Below, in pieces: positions 10,749 to 28,396 of a DNA stretch of 64,000 nucleotides. A program made the position numbers and the translations under genes. The notes under the pieces were generated by a model, which saw nothing but the letters and a program-made list of their open reading frames with translations, made no database searches and was not told the origin of the DNA. Numbering within the stretch: the first letter of the stretch is position 1; each line of letters begins with the position of its first letter. Origin of the DNA: Bacteroidales bacterium (GTDB taxonomy: Bacteria > Bacteroidota > Bacteroidia > Bacteroidales > UBA932); contig JAFTMS010000019.1 in the NCBI GenBank assembly GCA_017452265.1, positions 124,001 through 188,000 of the forward strand. Direction: 5' to 3'.

Positions 10749-13274
10749 CTAATAGTTCAGCACCTCTGAGGTTGTGCTGATCTGAGAGCTTCTGGTGTTG
10801 AAGCTTCCTGCATAAGGAACCTCGACCGCCTTGAACGATACGGATGAAACCTCTCTTTCACCCTTGATGCCCATGAAGTTGTCATACTTCTTCACGCCCT
10901 TGACAGAGTCGATGATCGAGTGTATGCGGCCTCTTTCCGTCTCGACACAATTGCCTTTCTCATTGAACCTGGCATTGATCAGGTCGAGCTGAGCCTTTGA
11001 AACAGACGAAGTCTCAGGTGCTTGAGCGAGTCCGTTGTCATCGACTTCAGGATCTACGAGAAGGACATCCTGATAGCAGGCGAAATTGCCGACAGTAGTT
11101 GAATATTCAGCATCAGAGAAAGCCCTGAGAAGCCATCCGTTGAAGCCGTATCCGCCAGTGGCATCCACGAATGCTATGTATCCCTCGTCCACAAAGCCAC
11201 CGAACATCACGTAATTGTTCGAAGCACCGTAAAGGCCGCCGTCAGCAGTCAGATACATTACTGCAGGATAGTATGCACCGTCGGCAATGGCATCGTAATA
11301 CGTAGAGAGCTGGTAAAGCACGCCGCCGTAATATTCCATGGTCATGGTGTCGTCGAAGGCATATTTCTGAGCTGTCGGTCCGAAGATTCCCTTCACGTTT
11401 ACATACTCTGCAACAAGGCCATATTCATCAACTTCAGCATTAGGAAGTTCACTGTCAGAGACGGTCACCTGACCGATGTAGCTTCTGAGAGGCGAATCAC
11501 CGAAATAGTCCACCGCATAGTAGTTGTACGTTCCGAAATATCCCTCGGATGCCGTAGGGAGAAGTTCTTCGACGAAATCATCTGAAGAGTAGTTCTTGTA
11601 TACAGGAAGAGGATCTCCCGATGTATAGAAGCCGTCGCTCATCACGACAGTGGTCTCATATCCGTTTGAAGCCCAGACGAGAAGATAGTACTCCGTTCCC
11701 GGCACGAGGCCTGTAACGACGTCGACGTATCCTGTCTCGTTCATGAGTGCCAGAACTTCCGCAGGAGCGGATTCCGACGCCATGAGACCCTCAAGGCATC
11801 CGTCCATGTCTGATACGAGAGACGCATATGTGTATATGCCGAGCTTTGCCTCCACGAGATCCTGGCCGTATACCCAGAATTCAAGCGATGTCTCTGTAGA
11901 CGCTCCGGCTGGAACATACTTGTCGGCCGAACCGAGACCGGCTGTAACGACAACAGGAGCAGGCGAATCAGCCGCAACATATGTGAACACAAGGGAAGTA
12001 TTGTTCTGTACGTTTCCTTCGGCATCATACGCTACCGCCACGAGAGTGTACTTTCCTGTCGCCTCCATGGAGACTGCAACCGTCGATGACTCTGCCACCT
12101 CGCTTACGGCTGTCTCGGAACCGTCGGCGATTGCAGCAATCTTGGCATCAAGCTGAGCTACATTCAGTTCGCCTTCATAGACTGCATACTTGACGCTCGC
12201 AACGTCCGCTCCGAGTTCGAATGTTACAGGAGCAGCACCTTCCGACGTAAGGCCGGCGCTGAGTTCAAGAGAATAGTCCACGCGGGTGAAGCCGTCGGCA
12301 ATCGCAAGAACATCAAACTCATCAGGTGTCCAGCCGCCACCGGCTGAAGGAACATAGTACCTGAGGTTGAAGCAGAAGCCTCCGTTGCCGTCATAGTAAG
12401 ACTGTGCATATGCACCCGGATTCTTCGCAAGGAATCCAGCCCAGTCTGCCCATGCACCGGCATAACCGCCATCTGTGGTCAGATAGTAGAACCAGTCGTA
12501 GAAATAGATTGGGTCCGAAGCATCAGATTCCGGTTTTGACTCCCAGTCAGAGTAGTCGAATCCAAGATATTGTCTTGGAACATCAAGCACCTGATAACCG
12601 TTCTCGTTGACAAGATTCGTATTCCATGTGAAGTTGAATGTCACGCCTGCATTGTCTCCCCAGATTCCGACAGGATTTCCTTCATCATCTGTCTCATTGC
12701 AGGTCGCCACGCATGTGCGCACACCGTTCACTTCATAATATTTCAAAGTCGCGGTGTGAACCTCCCCCCACCATCCTTCGTTGAAGGTAACCACAGCAGG
12801 CTCATTGGTCACAGGGTTGAGGAAATCAAGCCACTGCACTCTGAGTACGGAAAAGTCGATGTTCGTCGCTCCGTCATTGTATTTCGAAGCATACTGAGGA
12901 TCTGTGACTGCGAGTGTAAGCGAATACTTGACTCCGTTTTCAGAGTTCGGGAATGTCACGGTGAACTGGGTTTCAGCCTGACCGTCAGCGAAAGACACGA
13001 CTGGGATCTCGAAGATGCCTTCGTGCGAGACTGTCGGAACGACAGGTACGGTGATTTCGCCCTTCGAGTTGGTTCTGGCCAGGGTGAATGTGATCTCGGC
13101 AGGCATGCTCGGATCGAATGTGTGCGAGCCTGAAGCTTCCTGTGCTGGGAAATAGACTCCATAGCAGCCCTCGACGTCAGCCTCACCCTTGACATAGGTG
13201 TCGGCTTCCTCGACGCATGAAACAGCGAAGAGAGACAGTGCCGCGAATGTCAATATATTTCTTAATGATTTCAT
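10749..13274 (-). CDS. Large surface lipoprotein of SusCD operon, function unknown
   Basis: An 841-aa protein with a lipoprotein signal (MKSLRNILTFAALSLFAVSC). The N-terminal 130 residues look like a beta-sandwich (VTDPQYASKYNDGATNIDFSV), the middle (about 330-600) contains repeated fibronectin-like or Ig-like segments ending in phrases such as GTEYYLLVWASNGYET, and the C-terminal part is beta-rich and rich in Tyr and Gly. I recognise no enzyme motif. Position immediately after SusC/SusD is that of a SusE/SusF-like surface binding protein, and the downstream protease suggests a proteinaceous ligand. Confidence 0.65.
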   Translation of the reverse strand: MKSLRNILTFAALSLFAVSCVEEADTYVKGEADVEGCYGVYFPAQEASGSHTFDPSMPAEITFTLARTNSKGEITVPVVPTVSHEGIFEIPVVSFADGQAETQFTVTFPNSENGVKYSLTLAVTDPQYASKYNDGATNIDFSVLRVQWLDFLNPVTNEPAVVTFNEGWWGEVHTATLKYYEVNGVRTCVATCNETDDEGNPVGIWGDNAGVTFNFTWNTNLVNENGYQVLDVPRQYLGFDYSDWESKPESDASDPIYFYDWFYYLTTDGGYAGAWADWAGFLAKNPGAYAQSYYDGNGGFCFNLRYYVPSAGGGWTPDEFDVLAIADGFTRVDYSLELSAGLTSEGAAPVTFELGADVASVKYAVYEGELNVAQLDAKIAAIADGSETAVSEVAESSTVAVSMEATGKYTLVAVAYDAEGNVQNNTSLVFTYVAADSPAPVVVTAGLGSADKYVPAGASTETSLEFWVYGQDLVEAKLGIYTYASLVSDMDGCLEGLMASESAPAEVLALMNETGYVDVVTGLVPGTEYYLLVWASNGYETTVVMSDGFYTSGDPLPVYKNYSSDDFVEELLPTASEGYFGTYNYYAVDYFGDSPLRSYIGQVTVSDSELPNAEVDEYGLVAEYVNVKGIFGPTAQKYAFDDTMTMEYYGGVLYQLSTYYDAIADGAYYPAVMYLTADGGLYGASNNYVMFGGFVDEGYIAFVDATGGYGFNGWLLRAFSDAEYSTTVGNFACYQDVLLVDPEVDDNGLAQAPETSSVSKAQLDLINARFNEKGNCVETERGRIHSIIDSVKGVKKYDNFMGIKGEREVSSVSFKAVEVPYAGSFNTRSSQISTTSEVLNY

Positions 13275-13313: not shown

Positions 13314-14948
13314 TCAGTCCGTCACACCGTCACGAAGTTCGGCATTCTGGTCCTGTACCGGCTGGTTGCCGCCGTCATTATCGACGATTGCAAGGTTGGT
13401 GTTTTTCTCACTCGTGGTGAACCTCATCAGCCACCATCCGTCGTCAGCCGTCATGTTGAAGCGGAATGCCTCCGGCCAGTTGCTCTTATTATCGTGGAAA
13501 CGTACGAGAGGCTTGTTCAGACGCCTTGTATCGTTGTTCGCAAATCCTTCTCCCCAGAGCTCGACGCGGCGCTGGAACCAGACTTCATCAGCAAATGTGC
13601 GACCTGTCACCGCTGAAGAGTACTCAGGATCACGGTAGGTCTTCACGAAATTATCGAGAATCTCACGTCCCTTGGCCTCGTTTCCTGCCTTTGCATAAGC
13701 CTCGGCCTGGATGAGGATCATCTCCTCGACACGCATGAACGGCCAGTCTTCATCGTTGGTCACGGTGCCGACAGTGTTGCAGCCGAACTTCACGTTGGTA
13801 TAAGGAAGGAATGCAAGCTTGTCGTTTGTCTCGAATACAGGTATCTCGTTTCCTGTCGCAGAATCTCCTGTTGTAGGATCGGCCCATGTAAGACCTTCGA
13901 GAAGAGGTGATTCAAGGTTCTCGTCCACCCACCATCCCTTGCGGACGTCAGATGCAGGAATCTTGTTGTAAAGAAGGTTGTTGCAGATTGAATACACCTG
14001 ACATGCAGGAGCATAGCCGTTGTTCGAGAACGAACGGATCCATGAGCTTGAAGTTGCATACGGATAGATGGATGCGATGGAATTCGTCATGTCATATCCC
14101 CATATCCAATTGTGTTCTGAAATGTCGTAAAGGAAAGGGGTTGAGACCTCTTCAATCGTTGCAGGTGAATATCCTGCCGCTGCCTTCTCTGCATCTGCAG
14201 CTGCTTCTGCCCACATTTCCATATTGAGATATGCGCGTGCACGGAGGCCGTAAGCCACCTGCTGGTCAATCTTGCTTTTGTCAGGTCTGGTATAGCCTTC
14301 AAGCTTCTCGATGGCATATGAAAGGTCGTCGAGGATGAGTTTATAGACCTCAGCCACGGTCGCACGTGGGTTCTGTGTGAAATCAACGGTGGATTCCGTT
14401 ACAATCGGTACACATGGTTCATCCTTTGCACCTGCGGCATAGCTGAACTGAAAGTATGGCGCAAGATTGAGATATGAGAACGCCCTCATGGCACGGGCCT
14501 GGGCAATCTTGTTCATCGCCTCCGCATCTTCGGTATCTGCCGGATATGATTTTATGATGTCGTTTGCTGCAGCAATTTCATTATACGGAGCGGCATAACG
14601 TATATATGGGTTTGCATAATCTGCATTTCTTGACGTAAGCTCACCGCAGGTACTGAACCAGTTGTAACCGCTGTCCGGAATGATGAGATCGGCCGCCTCG
14701 GCATCATTCGAGAAACATATCATGATGAAGCCCCAGTCGTCAGGTCTGCTCGACAGGACTGTACATGGCTGGCCGAGTTTTGTAAACATTCCGCTGAACG
14801 GTGCCTCGGCACGTGCCGGAACGACCTTATAGGTCTCCTGCACCTGAGTTGCAAGGAGGGTTCCGCTTTCAGGAGCGGCTTCATCCATATCACAAGCTGC
14901 GACAGCGAGCGATGCAAGGGCCAGATATGCGAATTTATTGTATTTCAT
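13314..14948 (-). CDS. susD: SusD/RagB-family nutrient-binding lipoprotein (left switch system)
   Basis: A 544-aa lipoprotein (signal MKYNKFAYLALASLAVAAC) of the SusD/RagB family, which forms the extracellular lid on a SusC barrel. TPR-type helical pairs are visible around IAQARAMRAFSYLNLAPYFQ, YGLRARAYLNMEMWAEAA and RVEEMILIQAEAYAKAGNEA, as in other SusD proteins. It starts 19 bp after the SusC stop. It is strikingly similar to the product of 31638-33257 throughout its length, including the C-terminus ending in PVQDQNAELRDGVTD, so the two are recent paralogues. Confidence 0.92.
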   Translation of the reverse strand: MKYNKFAYLALASLAVAACDMDEAAPESGTLLATQVQETYKVVPARAEAPFSGMFTKLGQPCTVLSSRPDDWGFIMICFSNDAEAADLIIPDSGYNWFSTCGELTSRNADYANPYIRYAAPYNEIAAANDIIKSYPADTEDAEAMNKIAQARAMRAFSYLNLAPYFQFSYAAGAKDEPCVPIVTESTVDFTQNPRATVAEVYKLILDDLSYAIEKLEGYTRPDKSKIDQQVAYGLRARAYLNMEMWAEAAADAEKAAAGYSPATIEEVSTPFLYDISEHNWIWGYDMTNSIASIYPYATSSSWIRSFSNNGYAPACQVYSICNNLLYNKIPASDVRKGWWVDENLESPLLEGLTWADPTTGDSATGNEIPVFETNDKLAFLPYTNVKFGCNTVGTVTNDEDWPFMRVEEMILIQAEAYAKAGNEAKGREILDNFVKTYRDPEYSSAVTGRTFADEVWFQRRVELWGEGFANNDTRRLNKPLVRFHDNKSNWPEAFRFNMTADDGWWLMRFTTSEKNTNLAIVDNDGGNQPVQDQNAELRDGVTD

Positions 14949-14967: not shown

Positions 14968-17900
14968 TTAGAATGTAAGGGTAATGCCTCCTGTTATCGT
15001 GCGCATAGAAGAGTAGGAGCCACTGTTAAGTCCTGATGCTGAAGTGAATGAACCTAAGCCCATTGAATAGCGAGGGTCAACACCTTTGCGGGCAGACAGG
15101 ACAGCGAGGTTGTCGCCAGCCAGATATATGCGGAGTCCGGCAATGCCGATTTTCCTGACCGCCTTGGCAGGGAAAGTATATCCGAATGTAACATTGTTCA
15201 CACTCAGATAATCCGAGCTGATGAAATAGTTGTCCACAGCAGTCTGTCCGACGCTTGTGTCTCCGTCAAGACGAGGAATGTCCGATGTCCTGTTGGTTTC
15301 CGACCAGGAATCGAGCACATCCTTGTGCCATGCCGTTCCGACGCCGGCCGAAGTATGCATGAGGGCCTGATACGTACCGTCATAATACCTTCCGCCCAAC
15401 TGATATGAGAACTGCGCAGAAAGGTCGAAGCCATAGAACCTCAATGTAGTGCCGAATCCTCCGTAAAGTTTAGGGAGAACGGTTCCGCACTCATACTGGT
15501 CGGCCTGAGAGAAGACTGTCGTGACCTCATCTTCACCGGTATAGTTGCCGTCCTTGTCATATACCTTCTTATACCATTGAGCCTGTCCTGTCTCATCGTC
15601 CACTCCTGCAAACCTGCGGACATATGCCTCATAAAGCGAACCTCCTACCTTGTAGATATAGTAGCCTCCTTTGATGCCGTCCTCCGCCACACTTTCATCA
15701 AGCGAAAGAATCGTATTCTTATAGTGGCTGATGTTCGCGTTCCAGTTCCACTGGATATTCTTCGTATTGATGATGTTTCCGTCCAGAGAAAGTTCTATAC
15801 CGGAATTGCTTACCGAGCCGACATTCACCGGATAAAATCCAGTAGGGTTACCTGCCGAGAGAGGAACATCTTTAGAGAAGAGCATGTCGGAAGTTATGCG
15901 TGAGAAGTATTCCACATTTCCGTTGAGCCTGCCGTTGAAGAGTTCGAAGTCAGCTCCTACGTTGAACGAATGTGAAGACTCCCATGTAAGTTCCTCATTA
16001 CCCTTATAGCTGAGAGACAGGGAATATTCGCCTGTTGATTCGTTAAACGAATGCTCATACTGGTCGGCATACGGGTAGAAACGCACCGTATAATTGGTCG
16101 AATTAGGATAGAGGTTGTCATTTCCCTGCACACCGTAGCTCACCTTGAACTTAAGCATGTCAACCCAGCTGCTGTTCATCAGGAAGTCCTCACCGCTCAC
16201 GAGCCATGCGGCGCCTATGCTGCCGAAATTGCCCCAGCGATGATCAGGATGGAAGCGCGAAGAGGCGTCACGACGGAAAGATGCACTGAGGAAGTATTTC
16301 TCACCATAATTATACTGTGCTCTGGCAAGGAATCCCTGGGTCATGTATGTGTTGGTGTTAGAAGACATATTCATATTTGATTTTCCGTCAGCATTGTCAA
16401 GTTCGCCGATGTATGGATTGAAGAGACGGTCGTTCTGAGCCACAAGGTACTGACGCTTGAACGTGTAACCTTCATATCCCGCAAGAATGTCGAACGAATG
16501 GTCGGAACCTCCGAAATCAGTCTTGTACTCGGCAAGGAGCTGGGAGTTGACGGCAAAATATCTTGTATGTCTGACGTATGCGAGGCCGTCGGTACTAGAC
16601 TGGTCTGCAAACTGGCTGTAAAGGGCATTGTAACGGGTATTGTCGTTCATGAGTCCGACGTTTCCTGTGATGTTGAAGCCCTTGAAAGGATTAAGCACCA
16701 CCCCGAACTTGCCGTTGAGGACATCGGCATAGTTCTGCTTTCTGTCATGTGCATTTGACCTTACGGCGTTACCGACGATGCTCGGACGTATGAAATTCGT
16801 CTGATTGGCATCATATACAGGTATGCCGTTCTCATACATGATGTTTCCTTCGGCATTACGGACATAGAGCGGATATATAGGCGCAATCGTGTTTGTCACG
16901 TAGAAGATGTTTCCTGAAGAACCGTAAGTGCTGGAATATGACGCCACCTGGGAATCTGAATGAGAATAGCTCATATTGGTGGTTATCTTCATCCACTTCT
17001 TTGCCTGATAGTCAACGTTCACGCGGGCCGTGTAACGCTTGTAGTTCGAATTGTCCACGATACCGCCGTCATCAAGAAATCCGATGCTTGCATAATAGGA
17101 AAGCCTGTCCTTTGAACCGCTTATGGAAAGATTGTATTCCTGACGGAACGAGTTATGGAATGCCTCGTCATACCAGTTGTCAGGGATATATGTGTACTCT
17201 CCGTCCGAATATCCGAGAGTTGCATTAGGGTTGAGCTTGAAGTTCGTACCGATGAACTTCTGCCCGTCAGGAATCGTGTACACCTGATATCCGAGACCTC
17301 CGTTATTCTGGTTGAAGAGGTTGGCGTCTGCATATGCGTATGCCTCAGCGACTGATTTACCTGCATAAACCTGCGAGTTGTACATCATGCGGTAATGAGT
17401 CTCATAGTATTGCGCAGGATCGGTGATGACATCATACTGCGGAATAAGACGCGAATTCGATCCCCACTTGGCATCGAACTTCACCTGTGCTTCGCCGGCC
17501 TTGGCCTTCTTGGTGGTGATGAGCACGACACCGTTCGCACCACGCGCACCGTAGATTGCAGATGCGGCCGCATCTTTGAGGACAGACATCGACTCGACAT
17601 CGTTAGGGTTTATGTCCGAAATCGTTCCGTCATAAGGCATACCGTCAACTATATAGAGCGGAGAATTGCTTGCACTCATTGAGCCGATGCCTCGGATGCG
17701 GATTGTCGCCGAGCTGGAAGCAGGGTCTCCTGAAGACGAAATCACCTGTACGCCCGGAGTTGTTCCCGCAAGAGCGTTTGTCACGTTTGTCATCACGCGG
17801 TTCTCGATTGTCTCGGCATTCACGACGGCAGCCGAGCCTGTGAACGAGCTCTTGGTCGCGGTACCATATGCAACGACGATTGTCTCGTCAAGGAAATGGC

Positions 17901-18195
17901 TGTCCGGATCCAGAGCCACATCGAGCTGCGTGTGTGCATTCACCGCTACCTCCTTGGTCTTGTAACCGATTGATGAGAATACGAGTACGCCGTCATGAGG
18001 AACGGAAATCGTGAAATGTCCCTCGGCGTCTGTGCTGACTCCGGTCGTTGTGTTCTTAAGCTGGACCGAAGCGAACGGGACAGACTCGCCATTTGAAGAG
18101 TCTGTCACATTTCCGGACACCGTGATGTTCTGGGCAAAGGCCGCAGTCGTCATCAGTGCCGACAACACCATAAGAAATAGTTTCATTTTTCTCAT
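14968..18195 (-). CDS. susC: SusC/RagA TonB-dependent transporter (left switch system)
   Basis: A 1075-aa outer-membrane importer. Order: signal peptide ending at about residue 21 (AFAQ), carboxypeptidase-regulatory-like beta domain (about 24-100, ending DETIVVAYG), TonB plug (about 110-230, with IRGIGSMSASNSPLYIVDGMPY and IYGARGANGVVLITTKK), then a beta barrel ending in aromatic GGITLTF. The ATG lies 15 nt from the left end of the invertible segment, so any promoter flipped in that segment would drive it. No TAnnTTTG element is visible between the gene and the recombinase on this strand, which suggests it is silent in the present orientation. Closely paralogous to the SusC at 28397. Confidence 0.95.
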   Translation of the reverse strand: MRKMKLFLMVLSALMTTAAFAQNITVSGNVTDSSNGESVPFASVQLKNTTTGVSTDAEGHFTISVPHDGVLVFSSIGYKTKEVAVNAHTQLDVALDPDSHFLDETIVVAYGTATKSSFTGSAAVVNAETIENRVMTNVTNALAGTTPGVQVISSSGDPASSSATIRIRGIGSMSASNSPLYIVDGMPYDGTISDINPNDVESMSVLKDAAASAIYGARGANGVVLITTKKAKAGEAQVKFDAKWGSNSRLIPQYDVITDPAQYYETHYRMMYNSQVYAGKSVAEAYAYADANLFNQNNGGLGYQVYTIPDGQKFIGTNFKLNPNATLGYSDGEYTYIPDNWYDEAFHNSFRQEYNLSISGSKDRLSYYASIGFLDDGGIVDNSNYKRYTARVNVDYQAKKWMKITTNMSYSHSDSQVASYSSTYGSSGNIFYVTNTIAPIYPLYVRNAEGNIMYENGIPVYDANQTNFIRPSIVGNAVRSNAHDRKQNYADVLNGKFGVVLNPFKGFNITGNVGLMNDNTRYNALYSQFADQSSTDGLAYVRHTRYFAVNSQLLAEYKTDFGGSDHSFDILAGYEGYTFKRQYLVAQNDRLFNPYIGELDNADGKSNMNMSSNTNTYMTQGFLARAQYNYGEKYFLSASFRRDASSRFHPDHRWGNFGSIGAAWLVSGEDFLMNSSWVDMLKFKVSYGVQGNDNLYPNSTNYTVRFYPYADQYEHSFNESTGEYSLSLSYKGNEELTWESSHSFNVGADFELFNGRLNGNVEYFSRITSDMLFSKDVPLSAGNPTGFYPVNVGSVSNSGIELSLDGNIINTKNIQWNWNANISHYKNTILSLDESVAEDGIKGGYYIYKVGGSLYEAYVRRFAGVDDETGQAQWYKKVYDKDGNYTGEDEVTTVFSQADQYECGTVLPKLYGGFGTTLRFYGFDLSAQFSYQLGGRYYDGTYQALMHTSAGVGTAWHKDVLDSWSETNRTSDIPRLDGDTSVGQTAVDNYFISSDYLSVNNVTFGYTFPAKAVRKIGIAGLRIYLAGDNLAVLSARKGVDPRYSMGLGSFTSASGLNSGSYSSMRTITGGITLTF

Positions 18196-18210
18196 AGTTG
18201 TGTTTTTTAA

Positions 18211-18251
18211 AAGTTAAACATAAATATTGATGTAATTTTACACTACACTTC
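18211..18251 (+). repeat. Outer inverted repeat, left copy
   Basis: This 41-nt element (starts AAGTTAAACATAAATATTG, ends ACACTACACTTC) matches the reverse complement of 19396-19435 with a single 1-nt indel in a T run. The two ends of the element are imperfect mirror halves (AAGTTAAACATAAATA against AAGTGTAGTGTAAATT, 10 of 16 matching), as expected of a serine-recombinase crossover site with two inverted half sites. Confidence 0.85.
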
Positions 18252-18295
18252 AAAAGTTTCAGGCTTGCATGCCAACGCCCTGCGGACCATAATAT

Positions 18296-18318
18296 TTGCA
18301 CAAATAAACGGGCGTTTT
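18296..18318 (+). repeat. Inner inverted repeat, left copy
   Basis: A 23-bp exact match (TTGCACAAATAAACGG then GCGTTTT) to the reverse complement of 19351-19373. The spacing from the outer repeat is 44 nt here and 22 nt on the right side, and the sequence between is unrelated, so the two elements are conserved independently. Confidence 0.85.
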
Positions 18319-18430
18319 TCCAATCGGGCGGTGGGGAAAGCCAAAGTGCTCCGGGAAATAGGCCAATTTTCCGGATGAGATGCAGAAAAAGCGGGGGTGC
18401 TCCGGAAAAAGCCGCGATTTTCCGGATGAG
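18316..18430. repeat. 51-bp tandem hairpin repeat within invertible segment
   Basis: TTTTCC recurs with a 51-52 nt period (18316, 18367, 18418). Two full units start GTGCTCCGG at 18346 and 18397, and each contains a stem-loop: TCCGGGAAAT/ATTTTCCGGA (18350-18375) and TCCGGAAAA/TTTTCCGGA (18401-18426). A short leftward reading frame with a 17-residue period spans it, but nothing else supports coding. Similar GCTCCGGAAAATC hairpins occur at 41032-41116. Confidence 0.7.
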
Positions 18431-18470
18431 CGGTAGAAAAGAGACACCTGACTAAATGCAGTATGCAGAA

Positions 18471-18506
18471 CGTCCGATATGATTGACTCAAATATCGGGC
18501 GTTTTT
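18471..18506 (+). terminator. Terminator-like hairpin just upstream of recombinase gene
   Basis: CGTCCGATAT (18471-18480) pairs with ATATCGGGCG (18492-18501, one G-T pair) around an 11-nt loop, followed by TTTTT. It points toward the recombinase, whose ATG is at 18541, so it could block read-through into the recombinase or act as an attenuator. Confidence 0.6.
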
Positions 18507-18540
18507 ATATTCGTCTTATAATGTATAAAAACGAACCGCC

Positions 18541-19149
18541 ATGTCAGTCTATGCCTACATCAGGGTCAGCACGGAAATGCAGACCTACGCCGGTCAGGAG
18601 CATGAAATCCTGCAATACTGCAAGTCTCACGGAATCAATGTGGACAAATGGATATCCGAATCTGTGTCGGGAACCGTAGCTGTCGAGAAGAGACTGCTGG
18701 GCAGGCAGATACGGAAGATGCGCAAAGGGGATCTGCTCATATGCACGGAACTGTCCCGGCTCGGACGCAACATGCTCATGATCATGGGGATACTGAACAC
18801 GTGCGCGGCAAAGGGAGTAGCCATACACACCATAAAGGACAACTTCGACCTTACCGACAACATCAATTCGAAAATCATCGCATTTGCCTTCGCTTTGGCC
18901 GCTGAAATAGAGCGAAACCTCATATCGCAGCGTACGAAGGAGGCTCTGGCTGCAAAACGTAAGGAAGGCGTAAGGCTCGGAAGACCGCCCGGAAGCTCAC
19001 GTAAAAGGGATCTCTGTGAAGCCGAAGAAGGAAAGATCCGCTGTCTCTATGAGGAAGGAAAGACGCTGACATTCATCGCGAAATGTCTGAAAATCCACAG
19101 GAACACTCTCAGAAAATACATGATTGAGTTGAAAATCATTAAAATTTAA
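18541..19149 (+). CDS. Serine site-specific recombinase (resolvase/invertase family)
   Basis: A 202-aa small serine recombinase that would invert or resolve DNA between paired sites. The N-terminal catalytic domain starts YAYIRVSTEMQ with the nucleophile Ser10, followed by the family motif ELSRLGRN near 69-76 and the IAFAFALAAEIERNLISQRTKEALAAKR helix (dimer interface, E-helix). The C-terminal 50 residues (GKTLTFIAKCLKIHRNTLRKYM) form a helix-turn-helix that reads DNA. Size and layout match DNA invertases of the Hin/Mpi type. It lies inside its own probable invertible segment, with inverted repeats on both sides and outward-facing susC genes beyond them. No consensus promoter is visible upstream; a terminator-like hairpin precedes it. 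Confidence 0.95.
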   Translation: MSVYAYIRVSTEMQTYAGQEHEILQYCKSHGINVDKWISESVSGTVAVEKRLLGRQIRKMRKGDLLICTELSRLGRNMLMIMGILNTCAAKGVAIHTIKDNFDLTDNINSKIIAFAFALAAEIERNLISQRTKEALAAKRKEGVRLGRPPGSSRKRDLCEAEEGKIRCLYEEGKTLTFIAKCLKIHRNTLRKYMIELKIIKI

Positions 19150-19303
19150 CTGAAAGATGATTTTTTCTCCGCATTAAAAAATGCAATATAAAATGGTTTT
19201 AGCACTTAAAGATTATTTCAAATCGTAACCTGATGAGCAATAATTTATAAATTAATTCCCTAAAATCACTTAACAAACGCCGTAAAACCATGTTTTTGGG
19301 AAG

Positions 19304-19335
19304 TTTGGATTTTTAATTCCAATAATCTAACTTTG
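19304..19335 (+). promoter_or_regulatory. Outward consensus promoter inside invertible segment
   Basis: TTTG (19304-19307) and TAACTTTG (19328-19335) with a 20-nt spacer match the Bacteroidota consensus exactly. The start site would be near 19342, so the transcript would include both right-hand repeats in its leader and reach susC at 19453. The only such match in the segment; inversion would direct it to susC at 18195. Confidence 0.85.
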
Positions 19336-19350
19336 AAGTCCATGCTGAAT

Positions 19351-19373
19351 AAAACGCCCGTTTATTTGTGCAA
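19351..19373 (-). repeat. Inner inverted repeat, right copy
   Basis: Exact 23-bp reverse complement of 18296-18318. It lies just after the predicted start site of the switch promoter. Confidence 0.85.
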
Positions 19374-19395
19374 GTTCAGCTGATGAATCCGTAAA

Positions 19396-19435
19396 GAAGT
19401 GTAGTGTAAATTACATCAATATTTATGTTTAACTT
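19396..19435 (-). repeat. Outer inverted repeat, right copy
   Basis: This 40-nt element is the reverse complement of 18211-18251 apart from one missing T. It lies in the leader of the right susC, ending 17 nt before the ATG. Confidence 0.85.
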
Positions 19436-19452
19436 ATAAAAAGTCAGAATCT

Positions 19453-22400
19453 ATGAAAAAAAACTTGATGCTGCTTTTTGCCTCTCTTGTTCTGGGCGCA
19501 GGTTCGCTGCTTGCTCAGAATAAAGTATCCGGTATCGTGACTTCCGAAGCCGACGGCCAGCCTGTCATCGGAGCATACGTCACTGTGAAAGGTACCACAG
19601 ATGGAGGCACAATTACCGATCTTGACGGTAAGTTCGAGTTTGAGGTACCATCAGATGCAAAGATCGTGGTATTCTCCTGCCTCGGTATGGAAACCGTGGA
19701 GGTGGCCGTCAGACCTTATCTCCAGGTGACCATGAGACCGGATTCCGAAATGCTGGAAGGTGTAGTCGTTACCGGTATGCAGAAAATGGACAAACGTCTC
19801 TTCACAGGCTCGACTGCGAAGGTGGACGGTGAAAAGGCAAGGGTGGACGGAATGCCTGAAATCAGCCGTGCCCTTGAAGGAAGGGCCTCCGGAGTATCGG
19901 TACAGAATGTTTCCGGTTCATTCGGTACTGCCCCTAAGATCCGCGTCCGCGGTGCGACTTCAATCTACGGAAGTTCGAAACCTCTCTGGGTCGTTGATGG
20001 AGTGATCATGGAAGACGTGGTCGAAGTCGATGCAGACCAGCTCTCATCAGGAGATGCGACAACCCTCATCAGCTCCGCCATCGCCGGTCTCAACGCTGAC
20101 GACATCGAGAGCTTCCAGATTCTCAAGGACGGATCGGCCACTTCGATCTATGGTGCCCGCGCCATGGCCGGCGTGATTGTAGTAACCACCAAGAAAGGTG
20201 CAGCAGGACGTAGCAGAATCAGCTACACCGGAGAATTCACGACACGTCTGAAGCCTTCGTACAGAAACTTCAACATCATGAACTCGCAGGAGCAGATGAG
20301 CATCTACCGTGAACTTGAGCAGAAAGGATGGCTCAACTATTCGGAAGTCCCTAATTCAAGTGAGAGCGGTATCTACGGTGAGATGTACAACATGATCACC
20401 GCAGGAAGCCTTGCCAACACAGAGGCCGCACGCAACGCATTCCTCCGTCAGGCCGAGTACCGCAATACCGACTGGTTCGACATGCTCTTCAGCAATGCCA
20501 TGCAGCAGAACCACTCGGTCAGCCTATCGGCCGGAAACGAGAAGTCACAGTACTATGCTTCCATCAGTGCCATGGTGGATCCGGGTTGGGCAAGGCAGAG
20601 CAATGTGAACCGCTATACAGCCAACTTCAACGCCAACTACAACATCTTCAAGAAGCTTTCGTTCAACATGATCTCAAGTGCTTCGTACCGTCAGCAGCGA
20701 GCTCCGGGAACACTTTCATCAGATGTTGACGTTGTCAGCGGCGAAGTAAAGCGTGACTTCGACATCAACCCTTATTCATACGCCCTCAACACCTCAAGAG
20801 TGCTGGATCCTTCCGCTTACTATAAGAGGAACTATGCGGACTTCAACATCCTTCACGAACTTGAGAACAACTATATGGACTTTGATGTAGTCGACCTCAA
20901 GTTCCAGGGCGAATTCAAGCTTAAGCCGGTGACAGGGCTTGAACTTTCCGTTCTCGGTGCCGTGAAGTATTCATCTTCAGCACAGCAGCACACTATCACG
21001 GACTACTCGAATCAGGCAATGGCATACCGCGCAATGCCTACAACCACAATCCGCGACAACAACCCGTTCCTCTATACCGACCCTGACAACCCTTATGCAG
21101 TGCCTGTCACAGTGCTCCCTGACGGAGGTATCTATGAAAGAACCGACTTCAAGATGCTGTCATACGATTTCCGTGCTACCGCACAGTACAACAAGGAGTT
21201 TGCCGGCGGAAACATCGTAAACTTCTTCGGAGGTATGGAACTTAATCAGGTTCAGCGTCAGCGGACCTGGTTCCGTGGCTGGGGAATGCAGTATTCTATG
21301 GGAGAAATTGCAAGATATGCCTACGAAGTATTCAAGAAAGGTGCAGAAGAGAACACCCAGTATTATACAATGACAAACACCCTCATGAGAAGCGTCGCAT
21401 TCTTTGCAAACGGCACTTACTCATATAAAGGGCGTTATACGGTCAACGGGACCATACGTTACGAGGGAACAAACAAGCTTGGCAAGACAACTTCTGCGCG
21501 CTGGCTTCCTACCTGGAACGTTTCAGGTGCATGGAACGTACACGAAGAAGAGTGGATGAAGGGAGCATGGCCTTATCTGTCATTCCTCTCGCTCAAGGCT
21601 TCCTACTCGCTTACCGCTGACCGTGGCCCTGCAAGCGTGACAAACTCACGAGTTGTGATCGACGCGAAAAACCCTTGGCGTCCTAATGCCGGTGACGGCG
21701 AATCTGCACTCTATGTGTCCGACCTTGAAAATGCAGCACTCACATATGAGAAGAAGCATGAGCTGAATATCGGTGGCTCGATAGGATTCTTCGACAACAG
21801 AATCAACGTGGAAGCGGACTGGTACAAGCGTGACAACTACGACCTCATCGGCCCTGTAACCACTCAGGGTATCGGCGGTCAGGTCATCAAGTACGGTAAC
21901 GTCGCATCGATGAAATCCTCAGGTGTTGAACTCACGATTTCAACAAGAAACATCGACACCAAGGACTTCAAGTGGACCACGGACTTCATATACTCGCACG
22001 CCGAGAATGAGGTAACAAGCCTCGAGAACCAGCAGAGGGTGATTGACCTCGTTGCAGGTACCGGCTTTGCACTCGAAGGCTATCCGGTACGTTCCGTATT
22101 CTCGATTCCTTTCAAGGGCCTGAACGAACAGGGGCTTCCTACCTTCCTCGACCAGGATGGAAACATCACGACGACCGGCATCTACTTCCAGGAACGCGAC
22201 AAGATTGACTTCCTCGAGTATTCAGGAACAGCCGATCCGACAGACTTCGGTTCGTTCGGCAACACATTCCAGTACAAGGGTCTGAAACTCAACATCTTCT
22301 TCACATACTCATTCGGCAACGTCGTACGTATGGATCCTGTTTTCTCAAGCTCATACAGCGACCTCTCTTCAATGCCTAAGGAGTTCAAGAACAGATGGGT

Positions 22401-22752
22401 GGTACCTGGAGACGAGAATGTGACGACCATCCCTGTCATCGCATCCAGAATGCAGACATACAACGACAGCAATCTGTCTTATGCTTACAATGCCTACAAC
22501 TTCTCTTCCGAGCGTATTGCAAAGGGAGACTTCATACGACTCAAGGAAGTGTCCATAAGCTACGACTTTCCAAAGAATTGGGTAAAGGCATTGAAGATGA
22601 ATTCACTTTCTGTAAAGGTACAGGGAACAAACCTCGCACTTCTATATGCCGACAAGAAGCTCAACGGACAGGATCCTGAGTTCTTCAACACCGGTGGTGT
22701 GGCGACTCCGCTCCCTAAGCAGTTCACAGTAACATTGAGACTTGGTCTGTAA
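19453..22752 (+). CDS. susC: SusC/RagA TonB-dependent transporter (right switch system)
   Basis: A 1099-aa outer-membrane importer: signal peptide (to about residue 22, SLLAQ), regulatory-like beta domain with GKFEFEVPSDAKIVVFSCLGMETVEV, TonB plug (IRVRGATSIYGSSKPLWVVD, IYGARAMAGVIVVTTKKG), beta barrel, C-terminal FTVTLRLGL. It is only distantly related to the left-hand SusC, so the switch would exchange receptors of different specificity and not near-identical variants. The full consensus promoter at 19304 faces it, so it should be the expressed side in this orientation. Confidence 0.95.
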   Translation: MKKNLMLLFASLVLGAGSLLAQNKVSGIVTSEADGQPVIGAYVTVKGTTDGGTITDLDGKFEFEVPSDAKIVVFSCLGMETVEVAVRPYLQVTMRPDSEMLEGVVVTGMQKMDKRLFTGSTAKVDGEKARVDGMPEISRALEGRASGVSVQNVSGSFGTAPKIRVRGATSIYGSSKPLWVVDGVIMEDVVEVDADQLSSGDATTLISSAIAGLNADDIESFQILKDGSATSIYGARAMAGVIVVTTKKGAAGRSRISYTGEFTTRLKPSYRNFNIMNSQEQMSIYRELEQKGWLNYSEVPNSSESGIYGEMYNMITAGSLANTEAARNAFLRQAEYRNTDWFDMLFSNAMQQNHSVSLSAGNEKSQYYASISAMVDPGWARQSNVNRYTANFNANYNIFKKLSFNMISSASYRQQRAPGTLSSDVDVVSGEVKRDFDINPYSYALNTSRVLDPSAYYKRNYADFNILHELENNYMDFDVVDLKFQGEFKLKPVTGLELSVLGAVKYSSSAQQHTITDYSNQAMAYRAMPTTTIRDNNPFLYTDPDNPYAVPVTVLPDGGIYERTDFKMLSYDFRATAQYNKEFAGGNIVNFFGGMELNQVQRQRTWFRGWGMQYSMGEIARYAYEVFKKGAEENTQYYTMTNTLMRSVAFFANGTYSYKGRYTVNGTIRYEGTNKLGKTTSARWLPTWNVSGAWNVHEEEWMKGAWPYLSFLSLKASYSLTADRGPASVTNSRVVIDAKNPWRPNAGDGESALYVSDLENAALTYEKKHELNIGGSIGFFDNRINVEADWYKRDNYDLIGPVTTQGIGGQVIKYGNVASMKSSGVELTISTRNIDTKDFKWTTDFIYSHAENEVTSLENQQRVIDLVAGTGFALEGYPVRSVFSIPFKGLNEQGLPTFLDQDGNITTTGIYFQERDKIDFLEYSGTADPTDFGSFGNTFQYKGLKLNIFFTYSFGNVVRMDPVFSSSYSDLSSMPKEFKNRWVVPGDENVTTIPVIASRMQTYNDSNLSYAYNAYNFSSERIAKGDFIRLKEVSISYDFPKNWVKALKMNSLSVKVQGTNLALLYADKKLNGQDPEFFNTGGVATPLPKQFTVTLRLGL

Positions 22753-22772: not shown

Positions 22773-24377
22773 ATGAAAATGAAGAATATAACCCTTTTAA
22801 CGCTGTCGCTCGCCTTTGCACTGACCTCCTGCAATGAATGGCTGGACGTCATGCCGGACAACCGCGCAGAGATCGACACCGAAGAGAAGGTGGAGAAGCT
22901 TCTTGTAAGCGCATATCCGGAAAACGCATACATCATGCTTTCCGAGCTATCTTCCGACAATGTCGATGACTTCGGAGAAGATTCTCCATACAGCAACAGA
23001 TTATACACTCAGGTCTATCAGTGGAACGAAGTCACTGAAACAGACAATGAAGATCCGAAAGAAGTCTGGGGAGCACTCTACATAGCAATCACCAACGCCA
23101 ATCAGGCACTTGCCGCGATTGAGGAAATAGGCGCCGACACTCCGGCACTGAAGGCATCCCGCGGAGAAGCACTCCTTGCAAGAGCATACAACCATTTCAT
23201 TCTTGCAAGCCTCTTCTGCAAGGCCTATGACCCGGCGACAGCTTCGACAGACTTAGGCATCCCTTACATGGACAGGCCTGAGACAGAACTCAATCCGAAA
23301 TATGAAAGGGGTACGGTTGCGGAAGTATATGCCGCGATCGAGAAAGATCTTGAGGAAGGACTTCCTTTGGTCAATGATGCAGGATACAGCGTACCGAAAT
23401 TCCATTTCAACGAGAAAGCTGCCTATACATTCGCTTCACGTTTCTACCTGTTCTACGGTAAATGGGACAAATGTATCGAGTGTGCAGACAAGGCACTCGG
23501 TTCAGCCCCTGCGGAACTCCTCAGAGACTATGCGACACTGACGAGCTATCCTAAGGCACTTGATGTAGTTGGGCCACAGTACAACAGTACCAGCGCAAAG
23601 AACAATTTCCTTCTCCAGACTGCCTACTCTTCCCTCGGTCTCCTTTTCGGACCATACTATTTCGAGTCAAGGATTTCTTCCGGCAACCTGCTGATGCAGA
23701 CAGAGATGTTCAATCTCGCGCCTTGGGGAGGGCTTGCTCCTTCGACTTCAAACTACAACTACAGGAAGATGTACAAGCTTGACCACTACGTATATGTGGC
23801 GACAGGATTTGACAAGACCATCCTCCCGCGTCTGAACAATCTGTTCGAATATACCGACCCTGTTGCAGGTATCGGTTACTACCGCACCATATATGCAGCC
23901 CTTACAGCAGAGGAAGCGCTTCTGAACAGAGCCGAGGCATATATCATGAAGGAGCAGTACGACCTTGCCCTTGCCGACATGAACCTCTGGACAGCAAACA
24001 CACTCAACCCAGACTATTGCGATCCTGTGCTCACAGACCAGATCATCAAGGACTGGGTGAACGGAATGGAATACTATACGGACACTGCCCCTACTCCGAA
24101 GAAGAAACTTAACCCTCTCGTGGCTGATTTCGCTGAAGGAAGTGACATGGAGGCATATGTACACGCAATCCTGTACATGAGACGTGCAGAATTCTACATG
24201 ATGGGAATGAGATGGTTCGACGTCAAGCGTTACGGCATAGAGATCACCAGACGAAAGCTGGGAACCACCCTTGAGGTTCTTGAGACTTACGACAGACTCA
24301 CCGTGAAGGATGAAAGACGAGCCCTTCAGCTCCCTAAGGATGTCATCACAGCAGGCATGACTCCAAACCCAAGGTAA
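22773..24377 (+). CDS. susD: SusD/RagB-family lipoprotein (right switch system)
   Basis: A 534-aa lipoprotein (signal ending ALTSC) of the SusD/RagB family, partner of the SusC 20 bp upstream. The N-terminal NEWLDVMPDNRAEIDT is typical of RagB-like members. Helical pairs around ALYIAITNANQALAAIEEIG, GEALLARAYNHFILASLFCKAY and EEALLNRAEAYIMKEQY fit the TPR core, and the C-terminal YMRRAEFYMMGMRWFDVKRYG is the usual SusD signature near the end. Expected to capture the substrate at the surface. Confidence 0.94.
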   Translation: MKMKNITLLTLSLAFALTSCNEWLDVMPDNRAEIDTEEKVEKLLVSAYPENAYIMLSELSSDNVDDFGEDSPYSNRLYTQVYQWNEVTETDNEDPKEVWGALYIAITNANQALAAIEEIGADTPALKASRGEALLARAYNHFILASLFCKAYDPATASTDLGIPYMDRPETELNPKYERGTVAEVYAAIEKDLEEGLPLVNDAGYSVPKFHFNEKAAYTFASRFYLFYGKWDKCIECADKALGSAPAELLRDYATLTSYPKALDVVGPQYNSTSAKNNFLLQTAYSSLGLLFGPYYFESRISSGNLLMQTEMFNLAPWGGLAPSTSNYNYRKMYKLDHYVYVATGFDKTILPRLNNLFEYTDPVAGIGYYRTIYAALTAEEALLNRAEAYIMKEQYDLALADMNLWTANTLNPDYCDPVLTDQIIKDWVNGMEYYTDTAPTPKKKLNPLVADFAEGSDMEAYVHAILYMRRAEFYMMGMRWFDVKRYGIEITRRKLGTTLEVLETYDRLTVKDERRALQLPKDVITAGMTPNPR

Positions 24378-24404: not shown

Positions 24405-25280
24405 ATGACAAAGTTTTTGAAATACATAGCAATGGCGGTGGTCGCAGCATCATTCATCGCCTGCGAGGAAAAGCCTCTGGATCCGGAGAGTCAGGTCATC
24501 GACTCGCAGGTCGAGGAAAATGATTTTGACAGATGGCTTGTAACCAACTATATCGAGCCTTACAACATAATGTTCAAGTACCGTATGGAAAAGAACGAGT
24601 CGGACTTCAACTATTGGCTTGTTCCTGCAAAGTACGAGAATGCCATCAAGATGGCGAAACTTATGAAGTTCCTCTGCTTCGAGCCTTACGACGAGATCAC
24701 CGGAAGCAAGGAGTTCATCAGAACCTACTATCCGAAGATGATCCATCTCGTAGGTTCGGGAGCATACCGCAACAACAACACATTCGTTCTTGGTACGGCT
24801 GAAGGCGGTCTGAAGATCACGATGTACTTCGTGAATGACATGATCATTGATGTAGACTATCTCAACGAATACTACTTCAAGACCATGCACCATGAATTCG
24901 CGCACATTCTTCACCAGACAAAGCCATATTCAAGCGACTTCAATGCCATCTCCGGCTCTAAGTACGTGACTGACGCATGGAGCAGCACATGGGATGGCGA
25001 CGCAGACGCACAGAAGAACGGCTTCATAAGCGAATACGCCTCATCTGAAGTAAACGAGGATTTCGTGGAACTGATTTCAATATATGTGACAAATCCTGCC
25101 GAGTATTGGGAAAACATCCTTGCCAATGCCGGTGAAGGTGCCGCAATAATCAACGCCAAGTTCGACATAGCATACAACTACATGCTCAACTCATGGAACA
25201 TCGATCTCAACGAACTCAGGGATGTGATCCAGAGGCGTCAGGGCGAAATCGACACCCTTGATTTGGAAACGCTTAACTAA
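24405..25280 (+). CDS. Putative zinc metallopeptidase lipoprotein (Peptidase_Mx1-like)
   Basis: A 291-aa lipoprotein (signal ending FIAC, Cys20). HHEFAHILHQ holds a HExxH zinc motif at 163-167, and NEDFVE about 65 residues later offers a candidate third ligand. This matches the Bacteroidota family of short zinc-binding metallopeptidase-like lipoproteins regularly encoded after SusC/SusD pairs and before DUF4302 genes. Peptidase activity is predicted, not shown, for the family. Together with the subtilisin of the left operon it means both sides of the switch carry a protease-type gene. Confidence 0.85.
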   Translation: MTKFLKYIAMAVVAASFIACEEKPLDPESQVIDSQVEENDFDRWLVTNYIEPYNIMFKYRMEKNESDFNYWLVPAKYENAIKMAKLMKFLCFEPYDEITGSKEFIRTYYPKMIHLVGSGAYRNNNTFVLGTAEGGLKITMYFVNDMIIDVDYLNEYYFKTMHHEFAHILHQTKPYSSDFNAISGSKYVTDAWSSTWDGDADAQKNGFISEYASSEVNEDFVELISIYVTNPAEYWENILANAGEGAAIINAKFDIAYNYMLNSWNIDLNELRDVIQRRQGEIDTLDLETLN

Positions 25281-25295
25281 AATAGGACACTTATT

Positions 25296-26573
25296 ATGAG
25301 AAAGATATATTTAATCCTGCTTGCTGTCCTGGGAATGACTGTCACGTCATGCATCATGGAAGAGAAGGAACTCTTTGACAAGACCCCTGCGGAAAGAATG
25401 GAGGCTTATCTTGACGAGTACAGGACTCTCCTTGCCTCAGCCGAGGAAGGATGGCTTCTCCAGTACTTTCCTGAAGAAAATCAGTCATATGGAGGATATA
25501 CTTACGTGCTTCAGTTCTCAAAGGACTCAGTGACAGCATATTTCCAGCTTGACGAGGATATCGCCACTCCGGTATCCAGCCTTTACAAGATGACCCCGGA
25601 CGACGGCCCTGTCATCACCTTTGACACTTACAACGAGAACATCCATTACTTCGCCACTCCGGACATCAGCAACTATGAAGCTCTCCACGGAGACTACGAA
25701 TTCCGCATTGTCGGCAAGAACCCGGAAGCGACTGAGGTATACATGAAAGGAAAAAGGACAAACAACAGCTACACTCTGGTAAAGTTCTCCGGCGACCCTG
25801 TAGACTACCTTAACACGATAAACGCTGTAGAATCGTCTATGGGAGCACCTGCATACAGAATGATCATGGATGCAGATACCACAGTATGCTCGATCAGCGG
25901 AAACGTGTTTGAATTCGAATACAACGTATACACTCCGGAAGACACGACAGTCGTAACAGGTACTGCATCATTCTGCTACACGCCGGAAGGTGCGGACTTC
26001 TACGCTCCTGTAGAAATCAATGGAACGGAATATACAAACCTCGTATTTGATGCTGAGAACGGCACACTTTCCACAGAAGACGGAAAAATCACAATCATTC
26101 AGGTGATTCCACCTCTCAATGAGTTGTTTGTACTCGGCAACTGGTTCATCAAATACAGCACTCTGGGATCATATGCACAGAGTTATTTCGACATGGTAAA
26201 ACAGGGTGAAGACGCTATCGGCGAGGAACTTCAGTTTGCTTTCATCGGAAGCATGCTCTATCCGGGTCATTTCGGTTTCCAGTTCATAAGCAGCGGATAT
26301 GGCGGATCTCTTGACTTCATGTATGCACTTGAAGGCGAGGATACCATTACCCTCCAGTTCAGCATGGCCGCAGCCGGCGACGGTGTCTGGTATTACAACA
26401 ATGCAAACTTTGCATATGCTCTCTTCCCATTCGGATACAGTACACCAAGGACATTCAAGCTTACGGCCGATGATGTCAAGAATCCGACGATGATAACTAT
26501 GACTGAGATCGGCAATGAGGTAAATACCATTACTCTCTTCGCAGAACAAATCGCATATCCTTTCGACAACTGA
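25296..26573 (+). CDS. DUF4302 family lipoprotein
   Basis: A 425-aa lipoprotein (signal ending MTVTSC). The N-terminal pattern FDKTPAERMEAYLDEYRTLL, then AEEGWLLQYFPE and a GGYTYVLQF strand, is characteristic of the DUF4302 family that accompanies SusC/SusD and zinc-peptidase genes in Bacteroidota. Function unknown; probably a surface binding protein. It starts 15 bp after the metallopeptidase gene and ends the right switch operon: the 66-bp island-end repeat begins 3 nt after its stop. Confidence 0.8.
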   Translation: MRKIYLILLAVLGMTVTSCIMEEKELFDKTPAERMEAYLDEYRTLLASAEEGWLLQYFPEENQSYGGYTYVLQFSKDSVTAYFQLDEDIATPVSSLYKMTPDDGPVITFDTYNENIHYFATPDISNYEALHGDYEFRIVGKNPEATEVYMKGKRTNNSYTLVKFSGDPVDYLNTINAVESSMGAPAYRMIMDADTTVCSISGNVFEFEYNVYTPEDTTVVTGTASFCYTPEGADFYAPVEINGTEYTNLVFDAENGTLSTEDGKITIIQVIPPLNELFVLGNWFIKYSTLGSYAQSYFDMVKQGEDAIGEELQFAFIGSMLYPGHFGFQFISSGYGGSLDFMYALEGEDTITLQFSMAAAGDGVWYYNNANFAYALFPFGYSTPRTFKLTADDVKNPTMITMTEIGNEVNTITLFAEQIAYPFDN

Positions 26574-28245: not shown

Positions 28246-28396
28246 TAAAAATGCGCACATTCTCATTCACAAGTCTGGCACAATTAGTGCTTTTGGGGAC
28301 TGACGACACCGTAACCGTATGACAACGTTGACTGACCGCAGGGAAGGGGCAGAGCCCCGGACTGCAAAACATGTATCACAGTTAAACGTTGATCAA

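Follow-up and report, generated by a model that had tools for sequence, protein, structure and literature searches.

The stretch of DNA analysed here (the window, 64 kb) is part of a 2.56-Mb genome of a Bacteroidales bacterium that is 84% complete and consists of 45 contigs. Two divergent susC genes, with start codons at 18195 (-) and 19453 (+), enclose a short region that contains, in this order, an outer repeat, an inner repeat, a gene of a small serine recombinase, a promoter, the second inner repeat and the second outer repeat (Table 1). The initial annotation described a recombinase gene within inverted repeats of 41 and 40 bp with one indel, a nested exact pair of 23 bp, and susC start codons 15 and 17 nt outside the outer repeats, all of which was reproduced upon recomputation. 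It also placed the invertase inside the flipping segment, and the recombinase ORF (18541-19149) indeed sits within the inner repeats too. The outer inverted repeat (18211-18251/19396-19435) was recovered as two abutting pairs of 35 nt (97%) and 15 nt (100%) that are offset by the indel, and with one mismatch it extends to 18204/19442; the inner repeats (18296-18318/19351-19373) are an exact inverted pair of 23 bp. When up to three mismatches were allowed, a 25-mer of the outer repeat and a 22-mer of the inner repeat each had exactly two matches in the 2.56-Mb genome, one in each orientation and both at this locus, and reversed patterns used as a control for both searches gave none. A chance origin of the repeats is ruled out by these counts.

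Table 1. Features of the putative switch locus and of its two arms (positions in the window).
Feature	Position	Strand	Remark
Left arm subtilase (Peptidase_S8)	8527..10515	-	Pfam
Left arm large protein	10749..13274	-	no Pfam match
Left susD	13314..14948	-	Pfam SusD-like_3 and SusD_RagB
Left susC, predicted OFF at present	14968..18195	-	TIGR04056 SusC/RagA, 774 bits
Left outer repeat = left susC leader element (TCAATATTTATGTTTAAC + AGTGTAGTGTA)	18204..18251	-	conserved upstream of relatives' SusC
Left inner repeat = left crossover site (predicted)	18296..18318	+	exact inverted pair
Left core AACGGGCGTT	18307-18316	+	central dinucleotide GG at 18311-18312
Inferred flipping segment, 1,046 bp (recombinase + promoter)	18312..19357	.	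inferred from core sites
Third core-like site ATCGGGCGTT	18494..18503	+	direct repeat of left core; motif scan
Small serine recombinase (invertase), 202 aa	18541..19149	+	inside flipping segment; Pfam Resolvase
Promoter TTTG-N20-TAACTTTG, Bacteroidota-type	19304..19335	+	now faces right susC
Right inner repeat = right crossover site (predicted)	19351..19373	-	exact inverted pair
Right core AACGCCCGTT	19353-19362	-	central dinucleotide CC at 19357-19358
Right outer repeat = right susC leader element	19396..19442	+	conserved upstream of relatives' SusC
Right susC, predicted ON at present	19453..22752	+	TIGR04056, 626 bits
Right susD	22773..24377	+	Pfam SusD-like_3
Right arm zinc metallopeptidase (Peptidase_Mx1)	24405..25280	+	Pfam
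Right arm DUF4302 protein	25296..26573	+	Pfam

The recombinase matches the Resolvase family of Pfam (E 1e-33), and in the PDB its sequence is matched best by a DNA invertase (E 3.8e-14) and by gamma-delta resolvase. The closest curated family is Mpi (NCBIfam model NF009949), to which nearly the full model length was aligned with a score of 258 bits (E 5.7e-77), just under the curated cut-off of 272, so that the enzyme is a close relative of Mpi without being filed as a member. The serine and arginine positions checked, which we take to be catalytic residues, are retained among its relatives: Ser10 and Arg8 in all 61 members of the clade described below that have the residue (two alignment rows begin later), and Arg73, Arg76 and Arg125, together with Glu124, in 63 of 63.

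At least 189 of 400 genomes of the genus contain a match to the recombinase at an E value of 0.001 or better, and 90 loci among the matches listed, including that of the window, were examined. A tree of 108 recombinases, 19 of them from a wider genome-contig set and an order-level search, united 63 sequences, all from one genus, in a single clade with a support of 100/100 (the bootstrap was not fully settled, and G181, with a stop inside the recombinase frame, was excluded). The clade has at least 63 members among the 400 genomes, since partial matches of 54-63% identity (G009, G019:C28, G065, G154, G200, G323 etc.) were left unread. SusC was found on at least one side of 59 of the 63 recombinases. 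Divergent SusC genes on both sides were present in 41 of the 52 members for which each flank was read over 900 nt or more, the others having SusC only on the 3' side (seven), only on the 5' side (two) or on neither (G366 and G390). None of the 90 loci read had a SusC on the wrong strand in its flanks. Outside the clade, SusC adjoins the recombinase in G315, G089 and L154. The order-level search gave matches at E 1e-50 or better in 18 of 295 genomes, two of which are within the genus, and among 19 further loci examined SusC was located on both sides in one (L154). The named records among the relatives are Bacteroidales MAGs, and gut samples, from deer and buffalo among others, are the source of several.

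The genome of the window contains a second recombinase (L002, contig C39), which is 53% identical to the first and groups with relatives that have no SusC pair. In the excluded G181 (L105) the ON-side SusC has kept a promoter match despite the stop codon within the recombinase frame, and this is possibly a locked switch. In G243 (L082) the OFF-side SusC is separated from the recombinase by two ORFs of 407 and 93 aa, as if something had been inserted into the arm.

The promoter TTTG-N20-TAACTTTG was described in the initial annotation as single and pointing out of the segment, and no other sequence in the 3.6 kb of the locus that surround the recombinase matches TTTG-N17..23-TANNTTTG. It falls within both repeat pairs (19304-19335), the arrangement of TTTG/TANNTTTG between inverted repeats by which Bacteroidota invertons are recognised. 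An independent promoter of the left susC, which had been named as an argument against switching, was not found upstream of this gene within one mismatch. A flip at the core centres in silico places the promoter upstream of the left susC, the distance from the end of the -7 box to the ATG being 118 nt now and 139 nt after the flip; the two leaders, earlier called equivalent, share only their last 50-60 nt or so. The same asymmetry is found in relatives. In 37 loci, 60-260 nt upstream of SusC were scanned, the sides being set by the recombinase and not by the promoter, and with up to one mismatch a promoter was present in 29 of 37 loci on the recombinase 3' side versus none of 37 on the 5' side (7.7% of shuffled windows), leaving eight loci without such a promoter on the ON side. 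Exact matches numbered 12 versus 0 of 37, and at two mismatches 33 versus 8 of 37, a level at which shuffles gave 48%.

A promoter of the recombinase itself was not found, and inward promoter matches were few in the loci scanned. The chosen left site is no more than 70 nt from the recombinase in 24 of 36 loci, so the promoter of this gene may coincide in part with the site or else belong to the adjacent arm. The stretch from the left site to the recombinase holds, at 18337-18438, two direct copies of 51 nt, 73% alike, with CCGGA-rich inverted halves, which may form a hairpin or a terminator insulating the recombinase.

The elements AGTGTAGTGTA and TCAATATTTATGTTTAAC of the outer repeat sit immediately upstream of SusC in many relatives, within the transcribed leader. 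The outer repeat is a leader common to both susC genes, and each copy should stay with its own gene upon flipping. At positions -70 to -36 the leaders have a median similarity of 0.65 within a locus versus 0.47 between loci, 13 of 36 loci lying above the 95th percentile of the between-locus values. This number is 11 for the segment from -36 to the start codon, 10 for codons 1-25 and 9 for codons 26-100, and it falls to just 4 of 36 for SusC residues 105-330, where the medians are equal (0.40). This greater likeness of leaders at one locus implies that its two arms have undergone some exchange. An 18-mer of the leader has six matches in the genome of the window with up to two mismatches, two of them at the switch locus; the two next best (contigs C44 and C4; L147 1501-1518 and L148 1501-1518, 0 and 1 mismatch) are not followed by SusC, and the idea that this element is a general SusC leader of the genome is unsupported. 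In G029 (L027, positions 1-80) the first 80 bases of the contig, on the OFF side, nearly copy the ON-side leader of the same locus, which reflects homogenisation of the leaders or, alternatively, a contig end to which reads of the opposite orientation were joined.

Orientation was compared among relatives using one genome per species (99 arms), SusC genes of different loci being paired at 80% identity or more. Opposite states were found in 12 of 21 pairs (10.5 expected at random; pairs within a cluster are not independent), and a single fixed orientation among relatives, which the initial annotation had proposed to look for, was not what was found. The right SusC, SusD, metalloprotease and DUF4302 of the window are 97, 96, 95 and 85% identical to those of G236, where the operon is located on the opposite side of its recombinase; G021 and G245 share the placement of the window. 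Both arms match (at 58% or more) in only three pairs of loci, two in the same orientation and one in the opposite (G271/G310). As the partner SusC usually differs, these data are evidence for both states of an arm and not for a clean inversion of one locus, and arm exchange could account for some of the state changes. A set of viral contigs contained no match to the flipped junction, which is uninformative because the native junction was absent there too. A contig ends within 900 nt of the recombinase in 11 of the 63 clade loci; the contig of G290 begins at the first base of its core, and that of G343 ends a few bases short of the position of a relative's core. Contig breaks as a sign of mixed orientations were set aside, since other breaks do not fall at the core.

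Sites of serine invertases are dyads with a non-palindromic centre, and serine recombinases need a matching central dinucleotide in both sites. The inner repeat contains such a dyad, AACG-NN-CGTT with a non-palindromic centre. It was sought in 37 related loci flanked by divergent SusC genes, and the best site was picked independently for either flank. Sites with up to one mismatch were present on each side in 26 of the 37, and the central dinucleotide agreed in 25 of these 26, whereas shuffled pairing gave a mean of 7.0 and a maximum of 16 agreements, 25 being reached in none of 20,000 shuffles. With up to two mismatches, 36 of the 37 loci had both sites and 31 agreed, so that disagreement rises from one locus in 26 to five in 36; shuffled flanks yielded a site on both sides in 2 of 1,850. 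Between loci the dinucleotide varies (GG, AG, GT, GA, TC and others on the strand of the site; CC, CT, AC, TC and GA when read towards SusC).

Homology between loci in opposite states typically breaks at the same place. For G236/G245, G341/G066 and G245/G304, which are in opposite states, the DNA match begins at the start codon and is lost past the inner core. Median identity on the arm side of the site and beyond it is 0.81 and 0.52 for opposite-state pairs (n=12), 0.82 and 0.65 for same-state pairs (n=8), and 0.69 and 0.52 for unrelated arms (n=285); exceptions are G015a/G204, in which homology continues past the site, and G015a/G139, with low identity on both sides, and some sites are probably misplaced. 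Judging by sequence, crossover most likely takes place at the inner 23-bp repeats, the outer 41/40-bp repeats not being the sites, since dinucleotides match within loci and the homology of ON and OFF arms breaks there. A crossover at these repeats would make the flipping segment approximately 18312-19357, to which the earlier proposal of 18211-19435 has been corrected. The third core-like site (18494-18503), which the initial annotation did not mention, has one mismatch, is in direct orientation to the left site and is located 37 nt before the recombinase start, within the 70 nt in which 24 of 36 relatives have their chosen left site; G032, the nearest relative by recombinase identity, also carries a second core copy. 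Direct sites in the window could delete the intervening piece or act as alternative left ends.

Both SusC proteins exceed the TIGR04056 cut-off of 368 bits (774 left and 626 right), and they are 30% identical over the N-terminal part. The accessory genes of the arms were surveyed in 21 loci as 89 of 129 co-directional chain genes, SusD genes and one partial SusC being left out; the subtilase of the window's left arm belongs to a separate set of 20 arm genes picked by hand. Among the 89 proteins there are 22 subtilase N-terminal domains, 21 subtilase domains, eight Peptidase_Mx1, one Peptidase_Mx, one Peptidase_M64 and eight DUF4302. No glycoside hydrolase or lyase was found among the 23 Pfam families of these 89 accessory proteins in 21 loci, several arms ending with the stretch fetched. 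A glycan utilisation locus (PUL) is defined by glycoside hydrolases or lyases together with SusC/SusD, and here peptidases of families S8, Mx1, Mx and M64 occur instead. The two systems of the window probably represent one functional class, protease-linked SusC/SusD, despite the unrelated sequences of their SusC proteins. The first description of the locus as a bistable switch is supported as to the cis-encoded invertase, the one outward promoter, the two divergent SusC/SusD operons and the two-way choice, and its reference to "unrelated" systems fits their SusC sequences but probably not their function. RagAB, a relative of SusCD, serves peptide uptake (PMC11817032), and the arms may serve peptide or protein acquisition, the gene counts coming from switch arms alone.

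Arms and invertase segments are of mixed descent. The OFF-side SusC genes of G271 and G368 are 96.5% identical beside different dinucleotides (CC and CT), and the recombinase of the window falls outside a supported group of G236, G021, G299 and G245 (100/89), though the right SusC of the window and that of G236 share 97% identity. Arms may be replaced by homologous recombination through the leader.

The locus is thus very probably a self-contained two-way promoter switch between two SusC/SusD operons. The recombinase, made from inside the segment, would bind the two inverted inner sites (AACG-NN-CGTT), cut at the central dinucleotide and rejoin the ends, turning the segment of about 1.05 kb round. 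The single promoter near the 3' end of the recombinase would face either the right SusC/SusD-metalloprotease operon, as at present, or the left SusC/SusD-subtilase operon, and, as it faces one operon at a time, one system would be transcribed and the other not. Because the outer repeats lie outside the crossover, the two transcripts would resemble each other immediately ahead of the start codon. The evidence is that of sequence comparison (the anatomy, the conservation of sites, the matched dinucleotides, the one-sided promoter and the arms in both states across species), and from it we infer that the recombinase catalyses the reaction, that the segment flips in this strain, that expression of the two operons is mutually exclusive and that peptides are imported.

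Among other explanations, it is unlikely that the locus is a frozen switch, descended from a working inverton and fixed here with the right operon on. The assembly contains one orientation only, no promoter was found for the recombinase, and in the window the stretch from the left site to the recombinase is some 190 bases longer and an additional core-like site is present, all of which would fit a fixed state; on the other side, the recombinase ORF is intact with its catalytic residues, the cores are perfect and the inner 23-bp repeats are identical. A crossover within the outer 41/40-bp repeats, by homologous recombination or a second recombinase, with the inner repeats merely binding the recombinase, is quite improbable. 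These are the longest pair, and the leaders at -70 to -36 are more alike within than between loci (above the 95th percentile in 13 of 36), but the feature shared throughout the clade is the inner core with its matched dinucleotide, ON/OFF homology typically crosses the outer repeat to end at the inner site, and gene conversion accounts for homogenised leaders without inversion there. On the matched dinucleotides and homology breakpoints the outer repeats were rejected as the place of crossover.

We regard a broader shufflon, in which the third core-like site and a nearby susC (28319-31612) put more than two genes under the promoter, as very unlikely. This susC is 10 kb to the right and has orthologues about 71% identical to the left susC, and the extra core-like site is present at 18494-18503; that site, however, is on the same side as the left site and direct to it, so it allows a deletion or an alternative left end and no third gene, the other places in the window with a loose core ANCG-NN-CGNT have no second half-site or flanking TGCAC, and the leader element is absent at the third susC. 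Hardly credible is a passing mobile element, a transposon resolvase or integrase that landed between two susC genes by chance: resolvase-type recombinases are common on mobile elements and same-genus relatives without a SusC pair exist, yet a clade of 63 members has the same layout, matched sites and promoter placement, and SusC is on the wrong strand in none of 90 loci. On this clade-wide layout and strand consistency that explanation was rejected.

A two-way promoter switch of this kind resembles the Hin/hix flagellar switch in its cis-encoded serine invertase, two short inverted sites and one outward promoter. Like Hin systems, it has a small serine recombinase with the catalytic residues, and the invertase and promoter are located between inverted dyads of the same dinucleotide. 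In the Hin switch the promoter directly drives a single side, the other phase arising by de-repression, whereas both flanking operons here are alternatives with SusC leaders, and the recombinase is distant in sequence. In Campylobacter fetus, Dworkin and Blaser reportedly described in 1996 a single promoter on an invertible segment that creates surface-protein diversity at sapA. The sapA system comprises S-layer genes and RecA-dependent recombination of a larger segment, and has neither the SusC targets nor the serine invertase of the window. Tsr0667 of Bacteroides fragilis is a tyrosine recombinase. As with Tsr0667, DNA inversion would select SusC/SusD proteins, although here by a serine recombinase, one segment and two arms. 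Salmonella Hin is encoded within its flipping segment (PMC5903667), and inversion by Tsr0667 chooses the SusC/SusD proteins made, with shufflon-type multiple inversions, its targets being three SusC/SusD clusters and nine other regions (PMC4747536).

Mpi, the master DNA invertase of Bacteroides fragilis, acts in trans on 13 regions (PMC4747536), and a site ARACGTTCGTN is given for the Mpi type (PMC8375218). Mpi and the recombinase of the window have in common the small serine recombinase, the half-site ACG..CGT and the turning (here predicted) of Bacteroidota promoters. The half-sites agree (AACG..CGTT), with a centre of GG in the window and TT for Mpi. Unlike Mpi, which is trans-acting on many promoters, the window's recombinase lies inside its own segment with two sites only in the genome, and in its clade the central dinucleotide differs from locus to locus. 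Besides two reviews (PMC12632263, PMC11868660), related publications deal with invertible regions close to SusC in IBD (PMC10939037), with invertible promoters that have an invertase next to them (PMC8748976) and with the IR sequences at capsule promoters of Bacteroidales (PMC12118408). In the literature covered, which does not extend to key subscription papers, no description was found of divergent SusC operons enclosing a segment with its own serine invertase, nor a printed report of phase variation in the genus under the name Candidatus Cryptobacteroides, which we suspect to apply. What is new would be the combination of a Hin-like layout, a Mpi-like enzyme and SusC/SusD targets, each of a kind already known.

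If the switch is real, the cells of a clone would each have one or the other of two protease-linked SusC/SusD importers at the outer membrane and so hedge their bets on food, phage receptors and immune targets there, and a large uncultured genus of Bacteroidales would join the groups with programmed inversions. As the enzyme, sites and promoter form a 1-kb unit, they could easily be moved into laboratory Bacteroides for testing, and the natural variation of dinucleotides, which spans dozens of loci, provides existing material for the question of how serine invertases stay apart. A wider reading, which we put forward only tentatively, is that these loci form a genus-wide family of two-slot selectors of surface proteins, in which a relative of Mpi has moved into its own segment, the dinucleotide is an address and the arms are cassettes exchangeable through the leader. 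On that reading the switch would avoid recombining with other sites, because the dinucleotide differs between loci and is identical within each, and the outer repeat would be a landing strip for new importer genes, exchange taking place via the homogenised susC leader and not via the invertase. Near-identical SusC operons do have differing partners at different loci, and they occur both ON and OFF and even next to unlike dinucleotides.

The third susC, whose orthologues about 71% identical to the left susC are those of G021 and G236, could be a donor or a former arm. It is separated from the DUF4302 gene by a gap of 1.7 kb with an ORF of 450 aa (26728-28080, -), whereas in G236 and G021 the distance from DUF4302 to the next susC is 130-160 nt. 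The ORF is unmatched among the compared loci, and this region looks like an insertion in the lineage of the window.
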